Source: Phycisphaerales bacterium
GTDB taxonomy: Bacteria; Planctomycetota; Phycisphaerae; Phycisphaerales; UBA1924
Reading direction: 5' to 3'
Length of the DNA: 64,000 bases
Assembly (NCBI GenBank): GCA_027019265.1
Contig: JALUWX010000119.1
Location: 62,001-126,000, forward strand
In this document: positions 36,395 to 45,337 of the stretch, piece after piece
How positions within the stretch are numbered: the stretch's first letter is position 1
Layout: each line of letters opens with the position of its first letter
Notes under the pieces: generated by a model
What the model saw: only the letters and a program-made list of their open reading frames with translations
Told to the model about the DNA's origin: nothing
Databases searched by the model: none
Made by a program: the position numbers and the translations under genes

Positions 36395-38176
36395 TCAGCG
36401 GTTCTGCTTCGACCACGAGTCCTTGAGGGTCGCCGTCCTGTTGAACACGGGCGCGTCGATCGTCGACTCCCGGTCCACACAGAAGTACCCGATCCGCTCG
36501 AACTGGAAACGACGGATCCCGTCGACCCAGTCGGGCTCGTCGGGGGTGCGCTCCAGGATCGAAGTCTCGATCTTCGCGTTCGTGTTGATCACGAGCGAAT
36601 CCGGGTTCAGATCGTCGAGGTGGTTCCCCGTCGCTTTCCCGGGCTTCTCCGCGTTGTAGAGACGATCGAAGAGGCGCACCTCCGCGTTCACACAGTCCCC
36701 GGCGTAGACCCAGTGCAGGGTCCCCTTCACCTTCCGGACCTTGCCCTCTTCATCCGGGGGCGGGTTGTTGCCGCCTTTCGTCTCAGGGTCGTAGGTGCAG
36801 TGGATTGTTGTGACGTTGCCGTCGGAATCCGTCTCGTAGTCGTGGCAACGCACCCAGTACCCGCAGCGCAGGCGCACTTCACGATCCGGGCCCAAACGGA
36901 AGAACTTCTTCGGGGGATCGATCATGAAGTCCTCACGCTCGATCCACAGCTCTTTACCGAACTTCACGGAGCGTTTACCCGCGCTGTCGTCCTCGGGGTT
37001 GTTGATGACGTCCATCATCTCGACCCGGCTCTCATCGCCGCCGTCGCCCCAGTTGGTGATGACGAGCTTGATCGGATCGAGGACGGCCATCCGTCTCGGA
37101 GCCCGCTTATTCAGGTCATCCCGGATCGCGCCCTCGAGGCGTGACACATCCATGACAGCGTTGAACTTCGTCACCCCCACGATCGACACGAAGTCCTTGA
37201 TCGCTTTCGGGGTGTACCCGCGACGACGGTGCCCGGCGATCGTGATCATCCGGGGGTCGTCCCACCCGGACACGTGATCCCCCTCGACCAGCTCGCGCAT
37301 ATAGCGCTTCGACATGTTGGTGTACGACATCGCGAGGCGCGCGAACTCGATCTGCTGGGGATGGTGGATCGGCTCGTCCCGCTCCGTGTTGATCGCGTTG
37401 ATGAACCAGTCGTACAACGGACGATGATCCTCGAACTCGAGCGAGCACAGCGAATGCGTGATCCCCTCGATCGAATCCTCGAGCCCGTGCGCCCAGTCGT
37501 ACATCGGGTAGATGTGCCAGGTCGACCCGGTCCGGTGGTGGGGCGCGTTGAGCACCCGGTACATGACCGGGTCCCGGAGGTTCATGTTCGGCGACGCCAT
37601 ATCGATCTTCGCGCGGAGGACCATGGAGCCGTCGGGGAACTCCCCGTTCTTCATGCGCGCGAACTGAGCCTTGGATTCCTCGATCGGGCGCACCCGGTAC
37701 GGGGACGGGGTCCCCGGGACCTCGACGGACCCGCGCATCGATCGGATCTCCTCGGGGGTCGATTCATCGACGTACGCGAGGTCCTTCTCGATCAGCTCCA
37801 TCGCCCATTCGTACATCCGATCGAAGTAGTCCGAAGCGTACTTGATCTCCCCGTCCCACTTCGCGCCGAGCCATTCCAGATCCCCGGCGATCGACTCCAC
37901 GTAGTGGGTCTCCTCCTTCACGGGGTTCGTGTCGTCGAAACGCAGGTTGAACGTCCCCCCGAACTCCTGCGCGATCCCGTAGGAGATATGGATCGCCTTG
38001 GCGTGCCCGATGTGGAGGTACCCGTTGGGCTCCGGAGGGAAGCGCGTCTTGACGACGGACCGATCCCCCGGGCTCCCCCACTTCCCCGATTCGATGTCCG
38101 AATCGACGATCTGCTGGATGAAATGGCGCTGGGGTTTGTCGGTCTCGGGCGCGCGTTCGGTGGGTGTGTTGGACAT
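36395..38176 (-). CDS. glnS: glutaminyl-tRNA synthetase
   Basis: TRFPPEPNGYLHIGHAKAIHISYGIA, FRYRV-type anticodon-binding C-terminus, GWDDPRMITIAGHRRRGYTP. Confidence 0.96.
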   Translation of the reverse strand: MSNTPTERAPETDKPQRHFIQQIVDSDIESGKWGSPGDRSVVKTRFPPEPNGYLHIGHAKAIHISYGIAQEFGGTFNLRFDDTNPVKEETHYVESIAGDLEWLGAKWDGEIKYASDYFDRMYEWAMELIEKDLAYVDESTPEEIRSMRGSVEVPGTPSPYRVRPIEESKAQFARMKNGEFPDGSMVLRAKIDMASPNMNLRDPVMYRVLNAPHHRTGSTWHIYPMYDWAHGLEDSIEGITHSLCSLEFEDHRPLYDWFINAINTERDEPIHHPQQIEFARLAMSYTNMSKRYMRELVEGDHVSGWDDPRMITIAGHRRRGYTPKAIKDFVSIVGVTKFNAVMDVSRLEGAIRDDLNKRAPRRMAVLDPIKLVITNWGDGGDESRVEMMDVINNPEDDSAGKRSVKFGKELWIEREDFMIDPPKKFFRLGPDREVRLRCGYWVRCHDYETDSDGNVTTIHCTYDPETKGGNNPPPDEEGKVRKVKGTLHWVYAGDCVNAEVRLFDRLYNAEKPGKATGNHLDDLNPDSLVINTNAKIETSILERTPDEPDWVDGIRRFQFERIGYFCVDRESTIDAPVFNRTATLKDSWSKQNR

Positions 38177-38240
38177 AGTCCGGGATCGTAGATCGATCAG
38201 CGCCCCCGGAGCAGGGCCCCTCGGGACCGATTCCTTGGGT

Positions 38241-39383
38241 TTACGCCGTCGGAGTTCCCGAGAGCGCGGGATAGTCCGTGTACCCCCGCGCATCGCCGCC
38301 GTAGAAGGTATCCGAGTCCCACTCATTGAACGGTCCGCCCACCCCGATCCGCGCGGACAGGTCCGGGTTCGCGATGAACGCCTTCCCGAACGCGATCGCG
38401 TCCGCCCAGCCCGAGTCGATCATCGCCGCCCCGCGCTCCGGGTCGATGTCCCCGTTCGCAACATACAACGAGCCCCCGCCCTCCTTGAACGCGCGGACGA
38501 TCCGAGGGATCACCGTCTCGATACGCGGATCCGCGTTGCTCCGGTCCCAGGTCTCCACGGCGTGCAGATACCCGAGCCCGAGCGCCCCGAGCTCCCGCGC
38601 GAGGGTCGAGAACGTCAGCCCCGGGTCCGAGTCCCGAACATCCTTGTGCTCGCTCAGCGGCGAGATCCGATACCCGACCCGGCGCGCGTCCCCCCACGCA
38701 TCGACGACCGCGCGCGCGACCTCAATCGGGAACCTCAATCGCTTCTCGAGGGTCCCGCCGTAGTCGCCGTCTCTGGTGTTCACCCCGTCGCGCGTGAACT
38801 GGTCGAGGAGGTACGAGTTCGCGCCGTGGATCTCGACCCCGTCGAACCCCGCGCGCTTCGCGTTGCGCGCGCCCCGCGCGAACTGCTCGACGATCCCCGG
38901 GATCTCGTCGTCCCGGAGCGCCCTCGGGACCGAGTTGTCCACCCGGGTCCCCGAATCATCGACATACGTCTTGGACCCGCTGGGCACATCCGTCGGCCCG
39001 AGCGGCGAATCGCCGTTGGGCTGGAGTTCCGAGCTCGAGACCCGGCCCACGTGCCAGAGCTGGAGCACGATGTGCCCCCCGCGCGCGTGCACCGCATCGG
39101 TGACGAGCTTCCATCCCTCGACCTGCGTGTCCGTGTGGATCCCCGGGGTCGCGTAATACCCGTGTCCCCGATCCGACACGGGGGTCGCCTCCGCGATGAT
39201 CAGCCCAGACCCCCCCACCCCCGCACGCTGCTCGTAGTACTCGGCCATGAGCGCATTGGGTACATTCCCAGGCATCGACGAGCGCGACCTCGTCAGCGGC
39301 GCCATCCACACCCGGTTCGTCAGCTCAAGATCACCCAGCCCGATCGGCGTCAGCAGCGGGTTTGTCGTTGCGTTTGATGTCAT
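38241..39383 (-). CDS. alkene reductase, Old Yellow Enzyme family
   Basis: NRVWMAPLTRSRS, LQLWHVGRVSS, FDGVEIHGANSYLLDQF, YGGTLEKRLRFPIEV. Confidence 0.95.
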   Translation of the reverse strand: MTSNATTNPLLTPIGLGDLELTNRVWMAPLTRSRSSMPGNVPNALMAEYYEQRAGVGGSGLIIAEATPVSDRGHGYYATPGIHTDTQVEGWKLVTDAVHARGGHIVLQLWHVGRVSSSELQPNGDSPLGPTDVPSGSKTYVDDSGTRVDNSVPRALRDDEIPGIVEQFARGARNAKRAGFDGVEIHGANSYLLDQFTRDGVNTRDGDYGGTLEKRLRFPIEVARAVVDAWGDARRVGYRISPLSEHKDVRDSDPGLTFSTLARELGALGLGYLHAVETWDRSNADPRIETVIPRIVRAFKEGGGSLYVANGDIDPERGAAMIDSGWADAIAFGKAFIANPDLSARIGVGGPFNEWDSDTFYGGDARGYTDYPALSGTPTA

Positions 39384-39431
39384 CGTCGCACCTTTCTCAA
39401 TCCGGGATCCTGCGCGACGAGCAATCCGCGT

Positions 39432-41120
39432 TCAGACCTGGCTCGCGCAGTGCTCGACACACCGATCAATGCGCGCCAGCACCGAATCCTTCCCGAGCAC
39501 GCCCAAAGTCACACCCAATGGGGGAGACACCGCATCCCCGGTCACCGCGACGCGCAAGGGCTGGGCGAGTTTGCCCATCCCGACCTCGCGCGATTCGCAG
39601 AACTCTTTCACGTGCGCCTCGATCGCATCGGGCGCAAAGTCCGCGAGCGACGACAACGCCTCCCGATAGTCCTTGAGCAGCTCGAGCCCCTTGGCTTCGC
39701 CCTTGATGAGCGCCTTGTGGACCGCTTTGCCCTCGAACTCGAACCCCTGGTCTCCGACAAATGCGAACCCGATCACCCCACGCGCGTCCTTCAGGGTCTT
39801 GCAGCGCGTCTTGATGGCCGGCGCGAGCACCCGCATCGTCGCTTCGTCGAATCGATCGACGATCTCCGTGTCGTACGCGCTCGCCCATTCGCGCCAGCGT
39901 GTTGCGAACTCGTCGTCCGAGAGGGCCGCGATGTCGTCCGCGCTGAACGCGAGCAGCTTCACCCGGTCGAACTTCGCCTGACCCTTGCCCATCCCCTCGA
40001 ACCCGTAGTGGTCCGCGAGGTAGTCCATCGAGAACCGTTCGAGGTCCGTCCCATCCTCGTTCTTCGCCTTGGGGTTCCACCCGAGGAGCGCGAGGTAGTT
40101 GTTCAAAGTCCCCGGGAGGTATCCCGCGCGCCGGAAGTCCTCGACGTCGATCTCGGGAAGATCCACACCCACGACCCGCGCGAGCTCAACGAGCGTGCTC
40201 GATTCGAGCTGCTTCGTCTTGTTCTTGAGCCACTCCGCGAAGTCAGCATCGGACAACGAGGACACAGGGGATGAGGTCAGCCCCTCGTCCTTGCACGCTT
40301 TCTTCGCCGCTTTGTCCTTGTCCCGCTTGCTCATCTTCGATCCGTCCGGATTGAAGATCAGCGGCATATGCGCATACGTCGGTTCATCGAAGCCCAGCGC
40401 CCGCTGGATCGCGACGTGCCTCGGGGTGTTGATCAGGTGCTCCTGACCACGGAGCACGTGGGTCACCCCCATCATCGCATCATCGACCGTCACCGCAAGG
40501 TGGTAGGTCGGGAACCCGTCGCGCTTCCGGATGATGAAGTCGTCGAACTCCTCGGGCTCGAGGGTCACGTCCCCGAGGATCTGGTCCTTGACCGTGATCG
40601 CGGTGTCGGGCATTTTGAACCGCACGACGTGCTCATCGCCGCGCGCGAGCCGTTCCGCGCGTTCTTCGGACGAGAGCTCGAGGGCCGCGCGATCGTACTT
40701 GTACCCCACCTTCGCGTCGATCGCTTCCTTCCGTTTCGCTTCCAGCTCGTCCGGGGTCTCGAAGGCCGGGTACGCATGACCAGACTCGATCAGTTTCTCG
40801 ATCGCGGCGTTGTAATGCCCGAGCCGCTCCGATTGGAAGTACGGCCCAACCCCGCGCTCGTCCCCGCCGAAGCGCTTGCCATCGAACTCCAGCTCCGGCC
40901 CGTCCTCCCACGCGATCCCGAGCCACGCAAGGTCCTCCAGGATCCCCTTCGTGGACGACTCGCTCGATCGTTGCTGGTCCGTATCCTCGACGCGCAGGAG
41001 GAATCGCCCCCCGTTGCGTTTCGCGAACGCCCAGCACAGGAGCGCCGTCCGCGCGCCCCCGATGTGAAGATGACCAGTCGGCGATGGCGCAAAGCGAGTG
41101 ATGACAGGGGTGTTGCTCAT
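39432..41120 (-). CDS. gltX: glutamyl-tRNA synthetase with insertion after KMSKR
   Basis: RFAPSPTGHLHIGGARTALL, KMSKRDKDKAAKK. Confidence 0.94.
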   Translation of the reverse strand: MSNTPVITRFAPSPTGHLHIGGARTALLCWAFAKRNGGRFLLRVEDTDQQRSSESSTKGILEDLAWLGIAWEDGPELEFDGKRFGGDERGVGPYFQSERLGHYNAAIEKLIESGHAYPAFETPDELEAKRKEAIDAKVGYKYDRAALELSSEERAERLARGDEHVVRFKMPDTAITVKDQILGDVTLEPEEFDDFIIRKRDGFPTYHLAVTVDDAMMGVTHVLRGQEHLINTPRHVAIQRALGFDEPTYAHMPLIFNPDGSKMSKRDKDKAAKKACKDEGLTSSPVSSLSDADFAEWLKNKTKQLESSTLVELARVVGVDLPEIDVEDFRRAGYLPGTLNNYLALLGWNPKAKNEDGTDLERFSMDYLADHYGFEGMGKGQAKFDRVKLLAFSADDIAALSDDEFATRWREWASAYDTEIVDRFDEATMRVLAPAIKTRCKTLKDARGVIGFAFVGDQGFEFEGKAVHKALIKGEAKGLELLKDYREALSSLADFAPDAIEAHVKEFCESREVGMGKLAQPLRVAVTGDAVSPPLGVTLGVLGKDSVLARIDRCVEHCASQV

Positions 41121-41154
41121 GGGACCCAATCGTAGCGGGCCAACCCATCAAGAC

Positions 41155-41898
41155 TCAGTCCCGATCCCGCCCCCGGACCCCGTCGATCGTGTGGTGGACG
41201 GGCGTCCCCACGACCCTCGTAGATCCGATCCACTCCCCCTCGCCGTTGGGGTACCCCGGATGGAGCTCCGATCGCCTAGCCCGCTCGGCGTGCCCATCCA
41301 CATAGCCCACATCCAGCTCGTCGCCGGCGATCTCTGATTCGCCGATGTCCGTGTAGATCAATCGACGCAGCATCCCTTTGGCCGAGGGGTACAGGACCTG
41401 CGAGCTCCGCGTCGCGTGCCACTGGGTCGGTCCCGTCCGGGTCTCGGCGGCCCAGAACTCGGGCGCCGCGATAAAACACGCCGCGTACCGATAGTCCGGA
41501 ACGAACGACACCACCTCCCGTGGCGCCCGGAACACCTCATCGAGCACCGACTCCGCGTACCCCCCGGGGACCATCGCGAAGTTCCAGAAAACCGTCGCAT
41601 CGAAATATCGCGCCGCGACATCACCAGCATCAGATCGGAGCACGCTGTAATCCGCCCGCGGGTCCGTCAGGTACGGATGGATCCCGCGATGGTCCGTCGT
41701 GTACATCCCCACCATCGCTACATTCTGCCGGATCCGCGACAGGCTGGCCGCCTCGTCTGCGCGCCCCATCGCCCCCGAGATCGCCGGCATCACAAACGAC
41801 GCGAGAACCGCGACGATCAAGATCACGATGATCAGTTCGATCAACGAAAACCCACGCCTCCCGTATCCCAGCCCCGCACGCGCCTCGCCCACGATCAC
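41155..41898 (-). CDS. prepilin-type pseudopilin (type II secretion G/H-like)
   Basis: GYGRRGFSLIELIIVILIVAVLASFVMPAI; GTG start at 41898 overlaps the upstream gene's stop (GTGA) with a ggagg SD. Confidence 0.87.
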   Translation of the reverse strand: MIVGEARAGLGYGRRGFSLIELIIVILIVAVLASFVMPAISGAMGRADEAASLSRIRQNVAMVGMYTTDHRGIHPYLTDPRADYSVLRSDAGDVAARYFDATVFWNFAMVPGGYAESVLDEVFRAPREVVSFVPDYRYAACFIAAPEFWAAETRTGPTQWHATRSSQVLYPSAKGMLRRLIYTDIGESEIAGDELDVGYVDGHAERARRSELHPGYPNGEGEWIGSTRVVGTPVHHTIDGVRGRDRD

Positions 41899-42995
41899 CC
41901 CCTCCGATGCTTGACCCAAAGCCCCACCGCGATCAGCAGACACCCAATCAGCACGCCGCGGATCACCCACACCGACCCCCCACCCCCCCCACGCCCCCCG
42001 TCACCGAGCGCACCCTCGGACTCCACCACTCGATCCGCATCGAGAAACACCACCCTGTCCGATTCCGCGCGGTGGTCATACACCGACGCCACCGTCACCT
42101 TCCCCCGCACCGGATCAGCCCCCAGCGCATCGGGCACCCCCACGATCGCATCGAACGCGTCCTCGGACAACGCCCGCACATCCTGCAGCCGGAACTCGAA
42201 GTCGTCGCCGAACTGCCGGACGTGCACCGCGTCCGCGACCCATCGCTCGAGCGCTTCCGAGTACGACCACCCCTCCACCCGATACCCCGACCCCACTAGA
42301 TCCGGATCACCCGATCGGACATACTCGACCGACTCGACAAACCCCCGCCCGAGCGAGCCGTCCCATCGGAACTGGACCTCCGCGTCCCAGTCCTGGTCCG
42401 CGTTTGTGAGCCGCGCGCGGTACGCGTCCGGCGACGATTCATTCAGTTCCACGATCTCGACCGACCCCGCCGGGAGAAACCGTAATCCACCATGAAAGAA
42501 CCACGACACGTACACATCGACCACCCCGCGCGCCGACGCGAAGTCCTTCGTCATCGGCGCCCGATCCGGATCGACGATGTTGAGCTGCGCCCCGGTCAGC
42601 GACCACGCGGCCCGCCCGTCGAAACCGATATCGCTGTAGGCTCCGTCCCACTTCTGGGTCGTCGAGTACCGGAAACGCTCGTCGTCCCTCGTAGCGCAGC
42701 AGATCAGAAAGCGGTCGCCGCCGTTCGTGAGCCGCCGCGTTTCGATCTCGAGAAGCGAGCGATCCGGATGGTCCGGGCGACCCTCGATCCGCGCCGCGAT
42801 CTCGCGCAGCTGATCCGCCGAGCGCGATGGGCGATAGATCTTCTCGAGACACACCTGATAACCAACGGTCTCGATGGGCCCTGCCGCTTCCGCGAGCTCA
42901 CGCTCGAGCCAAGCCCCGACTTCATCCGATGCCGCGCACGGCGAGATCGCCACCGCGGACAGCAACACCCCAACAATGACGATAATGATCTTCAC
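41895..42995 (-). CDS. secreted hypothetical protein with Gly-rich + TM + basic C-terminus
   Basis: N-terminal signal MKIIIVIVGVLLSAVAISPCAA; C-terminus GDGGRGGGGGSVWVIRGVLIGCLLIAVGLWVKHRRG. Confidence 0.7.
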   Translation of the reverse strand: MKIIIVIVGVLLSAVAISPCAASDEVGAWLERELAEAAGPIETVGYQVCLEKIYRPSRSADQLREIAARIEGRPDHPDRSLLEIETRRLTNGGDRFLICCATRDDERFRYSTTQKWDGAYSDIGFDGRAAWSLTGAQLNIVDPDRAPMTKDFASARGVVDVYVSWFFHGGLRFLPAGSVEIVELNESSPDAYRARLTNADQDWDAEVQFRWDGSLGRGFVESVEYVRSGDPDLVGSGYRVEGWSYSEALERWVADAVHVRQFGDDFEFRLQDVRALSEDAFDAIVGVPDALGADPVRGKVTVASVYDHRAESDRVVFLDADRVVESEGALGDGGRGGGGGSVWVIRGVLIGCLLIAVGLWVKHRRG

Positions 42996-43164
42996 CGCGA
43001 CAATCTAACATCCCGACTCCGCCCGCAGGGCCGCGGGTACGCCCCCGATCGAAAGTTTCCACCCGCGGACCGCCCGGATCGCCCCCGACACGAACACCGT
43101 GCAAACGGGGAGTGATTCCCCCTCCCCGACCCTTCCAATTCGTCCGGGTTGTGTTTAGGATGAA

Positions 43165-43273
43165 GGTTGCTGGTGCGCCAACGCGCCAGCAGACAACCAA
43201 CCCGCGGGCGATGCCGGCCCGCGACACTTCCTGGGCCGACGCGTCCGCCTGACAATCCGAAAGGCGGCCCCCC
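43165..43273 (+). promoter_or_regulatory. candidate structured 5' leader of the EF-G paralog (three hairpins)
   Basis: Possible promoter TTCCAA-17 nt-TAGGAT immediately upstream; hairpins at 43165-43198, 43203-43223 and about 43233-43270, the last covering the SD-like aaaggcgg. Confidence 0.5.
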
Positions 43274-45337
43274 ATGCGTCCCACTGCAGATATCCGCAAC
43301 ATCGCGCTCGTCGGACAAACCGGTTCCGGCAAAACGCTCTTGGCTGAGCGGCTCCTCTTCACGACGGGCGCGATCACCCGGATGGGATCCATCGAAGAGG
43401 GGAACACCTTCTCCGACTGGTCCGATGAAGAGCGCGACCACAAGCACTCGCTCCGGACCACCATGCTCCACTTCGATCACGAAGGGCACATGGTCAACAT
43501 GATCGACACCCCCGGGCTCGCGGACTTCGCCGGACACGCGATCTCGGTCTTCCCGGCCGTCGAAACCGTCTGTGTCGTCATCGACGCCAACAAGGGCATC
43601 GAGCCCATGACCCGGCGCATGATGAAGATCGCGCAGCAACGCAAGCTCCCGCGCATGATCATCGTCAACAAGATCGACGACGACCAAGCGGACCTCGAAG
43701 CCCTCACCGAATCCATCCGGGAATCCTTCGGACCCGAGTGCCTCCCGATCGCGCTCCCCAACCCCGATCGCTCGAACACGGTCTCGGTCTTCGATTCCGA
43801 CCAGAGCGGGGACACGCTCTTCTCGTCCTCCGATGGTGCGCACCAAGCGATCATCGAGCAGATCGTCGAGATGCAAGACGACCTCATGGACACCTACCTC
43901 GAGGACGGCGACGAGCACAACATCAGCAAACAGCAGCTCCACGATGTTTTCGAGAAAGCGCTCCGTGAAGCGCACCTTGTCCCGATCACCTACGTCAGCG
44001 CCAAGTCCGGCGCGGGGGTTGACAACCTGCTCCACGTCGTTGCCTCCCTCCTCCCCAACCCCCTCGAAGGGAACCCGCGCCCGTTCCTCAAGCGCGATTC
44101 CGAGGACACGTCCGAGGTCGAGTTCGCCGCCGACGAACAACCCAACTCCCCCGTGATCGCGCACGTCTTCAAGTGCACGACCGACCCGTTCGTCGGGAAG
44201 CTCGGGGTCTTCCGGGTCCACCAGGGGACCCTCAAGTCCAAGTCCGAGGTCATCATCGGGGACCAGAAGAAACCCGTTCGGATCGGGCATCTCCTCAAAC
44301 GACAGGGCAAGGAATCGCACGAGGTCGATGCGATCGGACCCGGCGACATCGGAGCGATCGGGAAGATCGACGACGTCCACTTCGATGCCGTCCTCCACGA
44401 AGGGCACGATCTGGACTCCGTCCACCTCAAACCGCTCCCCCTCCCCAAGCCCATGTACGGGCTCGCGATCGAGCTCAAGAACCACGCCGACGAGAGCAAG
44501 TTCTCGACCGCGCTCCACAAGCTCCTCGCTGAGGACCCGTGCCTCGCGCTCGATCGGATCAAAGCGACGGGTCAGACCGTGCTCCGGGGTCTCGGAGAGC
44601 TCCACCTGCGCATTGTGCTCGAACGACTGAAGGAGTCCCAAGGGATCGAGCTGGTTACCTCGCCTCCGAAGATCGCGTACAAAGAGTCGATCCAAGGCAA
44701 AGGTGAAGCGTCGTATCGGCACAAGAAGCAAACGGGCGGCGCGGGTCAGTTCGGGGAAGTCCATCTCCGGGTCGAGCCCCTCCCCCAGGACCACGAAACC
44801 GGGTTCGAGTTCGTCAACGCGACCGTCGGCGGCTCCATCCCCAGACAGTTCATGCCGGCCATCGAGAAGGGGGTCCGCTCCGTCCTTGAGCACGGCGCCG
44901 TCGCCGGATACCCGATGTCGGGTGTGCGCGTCGAGGTCTTCGACGGCAAGCACCACCCCGTGGACTCCAAGGAAGTCGCGTTCATCACGGCCGGGAAGAA
45001 AGCGTTCATCGAAGCCGTCGCGAAGGCGCACCCCGTGCTCCTCGAACCCTTCGTCCATCTGGAAGTCACGATCCCCAACGACAAGATGGGCGACATCGCC
45101 GGGGATCTCTCCACCAAGCGTGGGCGCGTCCAGGACACCCAGATGCTCCCCGGCGACATGTGCACGGTCATCGCGCAAGCGCCCCTCGGAGAACTCCAGA
45201 ACTTCTCGACCGAGCTCAAGTCCATCACGGGCGGCGCGGGGTCGTACACCATGGAGTACTCCCACGATGAACTGACTCCCCCCCACATCCAGCAGGATGT
45301 GATCAGCGCCTTCGGTGGGCACGACGACGACGATTAA
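43274..45337 (+). CDS. elongation factor G-like translational GTPase (paralog type)
   Basis: GQTGSGKTLLAERLLF, DTPGLADFAG, VNKIDDD, SAKSG; domain IV/V region GGAGQFGEVHLRVEPL, DIAGDLSTKRGRVQD. Confidence 0.93.
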   Translation: MRPTADIRNIALVGQTGSGKTLLAERLLFTTGAITRMGSIEEGNTFSDWSDEERDHKHSLRTTMLHFDHEGHMVNMIDTPGLADFAGHAISVFPAVETVCVVIDANKGIEPMTRRMMKIAQQRKLPRMIIVNKIDDDQADLEALTESIRESFGPECLPIALPNPDRSNTVSVFDSDQSGDTLFSSSDGAHQAIIEQIVEMQDDLMDTYLEDGDEHNISKQQLHDVFEKALREAHLVPITYVSAKSGAGVDNLLHVVASLLPNPLEGNPRPFLKRDSEDTSEVEFAADEQPNSPVIAHVFKCTTDPFVGKLGVFRVHQGTLKSKSEVIIGDQKKPVRIGHLLKRQGKESHEVDAIGPGDIGAIGKIDDVHFDAVLHEGHDLDSVHLKPLPLPKPMYGLAIELKNHADESKFSTALHKLLAEDPCLALDRIKATGQTVLRGLGELHLRIVLERLKESQGIELVTSPPKIAYKESIQGKGEASYRHKKQTGGAGQFGEVHLRVEPLPQDHETGFEFVNATVGGSIPRQFMPAIEKGVRSVLEHGAVAGYPMSGVRVEVFDGKHHPVDSKEVAFITAGKKAFIEAVAKAHPVLLEPFVHLEVTIPNDKMGDIAGDLSTKRGRVQDTQMLPGDMCTVIAQAPLGELQNFSTELKSITGGAGSYTMEYSHDELTPPHIQQDVISAFGGHDDDD

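Follow-up and report, generated by a model that had tools for sequence, protein, structure and literature searches.

The gene for an EF-G2-type paralog of elongation factor G in this Phycisphaerales genome is almost certainly preceded by a real, selected and structured 5' leader. The leader joins a promoter, a hairpin where the transcript is inferred to begin (hp1) and five short sequence elements, named here a to e, the last of which lies in the Shine-Dalgarno (SD) region of the gene (Table 1). It probably controls translation of EF-G2 through the stem that encloses the SD. The window, i.e. the whole stretch of DNA that was analysed, is 64 kb long, and all positions refer to it.

Table 1 Features of the EF-G2 leader and gene in the window
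Feature	Position	Strand	Remarks
-35-like element TTCCAA	43133..43138	+	TTCCAATT/TTTCAATT-like -35 in 15/18 same-genus leaders
-10 element TAGGAT	43156..43161	+	17-nt spacer to the -35-like TTCCAA; TANNNT in 18/18 same-genus leaders
Hairpin 1 (hp1), at the inferred transcript 5' end	43166..43198	+	hairpin kept in 21/21 leaders despite sequence divergence
Element a, GCGGGC	43204..43209	+	invariant in 18 same-genus leaders; partner b or d
Element b, CGGCCCGC	43215..43222	+	GCCCGC partners a; CGGCCC (43215-43220) partners c
Element c, GGGCCGA	43233..43239	+	partner b; 93% identity; retained in the sister genus
Element d, C+GTCCGCC	43242..43249	+	43242-43248 partners a and 43210; 43245-43249 partners e
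SD region AAAGG and element e GGCGG	43260..43267	+	same-genus leaders all GGCGG; sister-genus form GGAGGG, with compensatory change in d
EF-G2-type elongation factor G paralog	43274..45337	+	687 aa; ATG at 43274

A conserved layout from the promoter to the Shine-Dalgarno

The genus includes 21 genomes; the EF-G2 ortholog has a readable start in 18 of them, one of these 18 being split across two contigs. All 18 readable orthologs carry the leader, with promoter and hp1 followed by the five elements in a fixed order. The same-genus consensus is GCGGGC for a, GGCCCGC for b, GGGCCGA for c, GCCCGCC for d and, together with the SD, GGCGG for e. Mean pairwise identity among these leaders is 1.00, 0.94, 0.93, 0.94 and 1.00 for a, b, c, d and e respectively, while loops and linkers reach only 0.30-0.49 and the fourfold-degenerate sites of the EF-G2 gene 0.46. 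Elements that are 93-100% identical against such a background therefore indicate selection on the elements, with linkers that are under no strong constraint.

A promoter-like TTCCAA-17-TAGGAT, first proposed in a sequence-only reading of this DNA, is present, and its position is backed by the comparison of orthologs. The -10 element (TANNNT) stands exactly 4 nt 5' of an RTYG motif in every same-genus EF-G2 leader (18/18), the latter being GTTG at 43166 in the source genome, and a -35-like element accompanies it in 15 of the 18. A promoter scan did not report TTCCAA-17-TAGGAT, which is too far from the consensus. The EF-G2 transcript would begin near 43166.

The region 43160-43300 has a minimum free energy of -60.1 kcal/mol, against an average of -48.8 for shuffled sequences (z -3.1), and none of 200 shuffles was as low. 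Hairpin 1 (43165-43198) is predicted to form 10 pairs and a GGTTG/CAACC base. Its sequence has a random-like mean pairwise identity of 0.31, and its hairpin z is negative in 21/21 leaders, with a mean of -2.5. It would cap, and probably protect, the 5' end of the EF-G2 mRNA. Hairpin 2 pairs CGCGGGC (43203-43209) with GCCCGCG (43217-43223), and hairpin 3 pairs CCGCC (43245-43249) with GGCGG (43263-43267) over the SD-like AAAGGCGG. The three hairpins thus lie where the sequence-only reading had placed them, and the leader is structured from the transcript start onwards, with the SD enclosed in a stem; the same layout recurs in 18/18 same-genus leaders and in three species of a sister genus. Conservation of the stems, on which that reading had staked its proposal, was found in the comparison between species.

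Two mutually exclusive folds

Three of the elements have a choice of partners: b or d for a, a or c for b, and a or e for d. The pairings make up two folds that exclude each other and recur across species, fold 1 consisting of a:b and d:e, and fold 2 of b:c nested inside a:d. Competing stems had been proposed before, for hairpin 3, and such stems do exist among the orthologs, although not all with the partners first assigned to them. The pairing CCGCC/GGCGG is conserved. Its suggested competitor, GGGCCG (43233-43238) with CGGCCC (43265-43270), is complementary in the source genome, but the sequence at 43265-43270 is not conserved elsewhere and was rejected as the partner of c; the conserved competitor for GGGCCGA is the CGGCCC within b, at 43215-43220. 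In this genus the first two positions of d (d0-d1, GC) take no part in d:e, yet they are conserved; a:d makes use of them.

According to constrained ensemble energies, fold 1 and fold 2 are at most about 5 kcal/mol apart in nearly all species. In most species a generic refolding score fails to surpass that of dinucleotide shuffles, and it was left out of the evidence. GC-rich sequence refolds to the same extent after shuffling, and near-equal fold energies alone therefore prove nothing. When growing transcripts were folded as prefixes at 37 C, those ending after d formed a:d with a probability of 0.83-1.0 in 17/17 species, and at full length 15 of the 17 moved away from it. In L012, L017 and the sister genus the full-length prediction is still mostly a:d, and there the SD of L147 remains paired. 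The predicted opening of the SD in the presumed "on" fold is inconsistent among species, and the start codon opens in some only. L008 and L016 have a broken b:c pairing and L146 and L147 a shortened one, and four others carry an internal mismatch in c. In L008 and L016, which do not group as sisters in the tree, b is replaced by GCCGCCTC, a sequence complementary to the SD region GAGGCGGC.

Conservation, promoter spacing, hp1, the complementarities and the near-equal energies are results of computation and comparison between species. That the leader acts by switching between the two folds is a model to which we give slightly less than an even chance.

Covariation and the sister genus

Covariation was tested against a tree-based null that allows for relatedness, with P values uncorrected for the number of pairs tested. 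In the SD stem, d4:e2 changes on both sides from G-C to U-A in two species of the sister genus and is broken in the third (P 0.03, uncorrected). The pair a6:d-1 occurs as G-C, U-A, A-U and G-U and is standard in 14/21 leaders; its uncorrected P value is 0.03 for pairs plus types and 0.19 for pairs alone. The remaining stem pairs are too conserved to inform on covariation. Once relatedness is allowed for, covariation is weak.

The sister genus is represented by three species (G183-G185; loci L146-L148, the same as L080, L077 and L079), which are 77-81% identical over the N-terminal query. All three leaders have the same layout with altered letters: CCGGGC for a, GCCCG for b, GGGCCGA for c, GCCCTCC for d and GGAGGGC for e. 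In this genus a:d is extended into the end of c (GGGCGTTG:CGACGCCC) and constitutes the minimum-energy fold.

These results bear on the most serious alternative, a static leader in which hp1 guards the 5' end from decay and a:b with d:e fix translation at a low level, the complementarity of a to d and of b to c being a by-product of GC-rich repeated stems and no regulated switch existing. Such a leader would explain why the refolding score does not exceed that of shuffles, why hp1 is conserved as a hairpin without its sequence, as expected of a stabiliser, and why the clearest compensatory change is found in d:e. It leaves c without a partner, yet c is nearly invariant; d0-d1 are maintained although they lie beyond d:e, a6 and d-1 tend to be able to pair, and the sister genus favours a:d energetically. 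We consider the static leader unlikely, if deserving of real weight.

Distribution of the leader

More distant relatives that were inspected lack elements a-e. A covariance-model search of 61 genomes gave strong matches solely at the EF-G2 leader; the search model, R1, passes over most of lineage A and is an incomplete detector. The weaker matches that were read were taken as chance, two of them (L061 and L062) apparently lying in coding sequence and one (L060) before an unrelated gene. Rfam 15 gave no match in the 64 kb window at the gathering score, and nothing credible down to an E value of 5, the best hit having 18.4 bits against a gathering score of 52.5 (E 3.8) on the opposite strand. 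With no counterpart in Rfam 15, the leader is a candidate for a new RNA family. A further genus of the same taxonomic family (L151 and L153) has a conserved hairpin of its own before EF-G2, GGGCTGCCCTTCGGGAAGG, followed by TGGGCAG; this hairpin has no sequence relation to the a-e leader.

The restriction of the covariance-model matches to the EF-G2 gene would fit a leader bound by protein, in which one fold is fixed by the binding of EF-G2, a ribosomal protein or some further factor to the conserved c/b region. The outcome would be autoregulation, which the sequence-only reading had suggested beside a ribosome-linked signal. The conservation of c (GGGCCGA) would fit it too, as it exceeds what pairing with b needs, because c persists where b drifts (L008, L016, L146 and L147). 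The leader, however, resembles no ribosomal-protein leader in Rfam, and we regard control by a bound protein as improbable.

The EF-G2 gene and its neighbourhood

The protein encoded at 43274-45337 has the complete set of EF-G domains (Pfam) and scores 861 bits with NF009891 (PRK13351.1-1, EF-G2 type GTPase), above the curated cut-off of 597. The catalytic residue of translational GTPases is the histidine of the DTPGHVDF motif. The paralog has DTPGLADF, whereas a separate EF-G in this genome (G000:C49:58449-60542) keeps DTPGHVDF. The position of the catalytic histidine is variable among EF-G2 relatives, being occupied by Leu, Met, Tyr, Arg, Phe, Thr, Ser and others, with His in none of those counted. 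One of the solved structural relatives of EF-G2 is 1WDT, a Thermus EF-G homolog.

Adjoining EF-G2 on the opposite strand, glnS, an old-yellow-enzyme gene and gltX follow one another in this order, both at 36395-41129 and in the related loci L067-L081. Several relatives have gltX directly divergent from EF-G2 at a distance of a few hundred bases, so that the leader and the gltX promoter share one intergenic region. Between gltX and EF-G2 (41155-42995) the source genome has two ORFs, one pilin-like and one of 366 aa without annotation; neither had a match in a search of 18 related loci. Planctomycete-type EF-G2 loci also occur under the record titles Cyanobacteria, Vicinamibacteraceae and Alphaproteobacteria (L086, L138 and L142), which probably reflects mis-binned or mislabelled MAGs, or else transfer.

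Proposed mechanism

In the proposed switch the two folds would interconvert in cells and alter translation. Fold 1, where the start region would also be contacted by c or by its neighbour, would leave the SD and start codon partly closed and translation low. Fold 2 would withdraw d from the SD and allow higher translation, which would make it the putative on state. The predicted order of folding begins with a:b, passes to a:d with b:c once d has been transcribed, and ends mostly in a:b with d:e once the SD is out. With this order, early ribosome binding would favour expression.

No terminator-like site was found on the + strand in 42000-44000. Control would be translational rather than by a terminator, because d:e is not followed by a T run. 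A leader-peptide attenuator was rejected, since the linkers vary in length by amounts other than multiples of three and the leaders have no ATG in common.

An SD held in a stem together with alternative folds is typical of both small-molecule riboswitches and RNA thermometers, and either might act through the two folds described here. A conserved unpaired core resembling an aptamer was not seen, the only conserved sequences outside the stems being c and a short ACAWC stretch. As for a thermometer, fold shares predicted from 4 to 50 C move in opposite directions in different species, a temperature effect of inconsistent sign on which, as a prediction, this candidate was set aside. The chance that the leader is one or the other is accordingly very small. 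It is hardly credible that the GCGGGC/GCCCGC and TCGGCCC/GGGCCGA boxes are half-sites of a transcription-factor DNA operator without any RNA structure: they form inverted repeats 3' of the promoter and the divergent gltX is nearby in relatives, but the b-c spacing ranges from 9 to 36 nt among leaders without helical phase, and the compensatory change falls in the SD stem.

Returning to the two-fold switch, its fullest form can be put forward only tentatively, and as a whole we think it more likely to fail than to hold. The leader may represent a previously undescribed class of cis-regulatory RNA, so far limited to two sister Phycisphaerales genera. In this class the alternation of a:b and d:e with a:d and b:c would set the time at which ribosomes gain access to the mRNA for an alternative EF-G without the catalytic histidine, linking its supply to the state of translation.

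Comparison with known systems

Over 55 riboswitch classes are mentioned in a review (PMC10907184). The EF-G2 leader is similar to translational riboswitch platforms and SD-sequestering leaders in having two predicted exclusive folds, one of which would occupy the SD/start region, and differs from translational riboswitches in that it has no recognisable aptamer and no match in Rfam. With the autogenous leaders of ribosomal-protein and translation-factor genes the EF-G2 leader shares a folded structure ahead of a translation factor gene; in contrast to them, it matches no such Rfam family and is found on an EF-G paralog, outside a ribosomal-protein operon.

In the type I toxin mRNA aapA3, short-lived hairpins that form during transcription govern ribosome access by metastable sequestration of the SD (PMC6733600). 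The EF-G2 leader likewise has a predicted transient co-transcriptional fold that would affect ribosome access, but the transient fold of aapA3 hides the SD whereas that of the EF-G2 leader is predicted to free it. The antisense RNA and mRNA processing of aapA3 are not evident for the EF-G2 leader.

The supply of the Bacteroides alternative EF-G (fusA2/EF-G2) is strongly regulated, in response to carbon limitation, and this is done transcriptionally by BT4338/Cur (PMC10294740, PMC10994844). Both systems concern an alternative EF-G and they differ in that the known control in Bacteroides is transcriptional; the protein encoded at 43274-45337 scores 478 bits in the comparison with Bacteroides EF-G2, far below the cut-off of 1000 bits. 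The Bacteroides system is the regulation of an EF-G paralog found in the literature searched, and a planctomycete leader dedicated to EF-G2 would show a second, post-transcriptional route. The leader also supplies concrete base pairs with which to probe when and why bacteria turn on an alternative translocase. It belongs to no described RNA family among those tested (Rfam 15) and, by analogy, would work as SD-sequestering leaders generally do.
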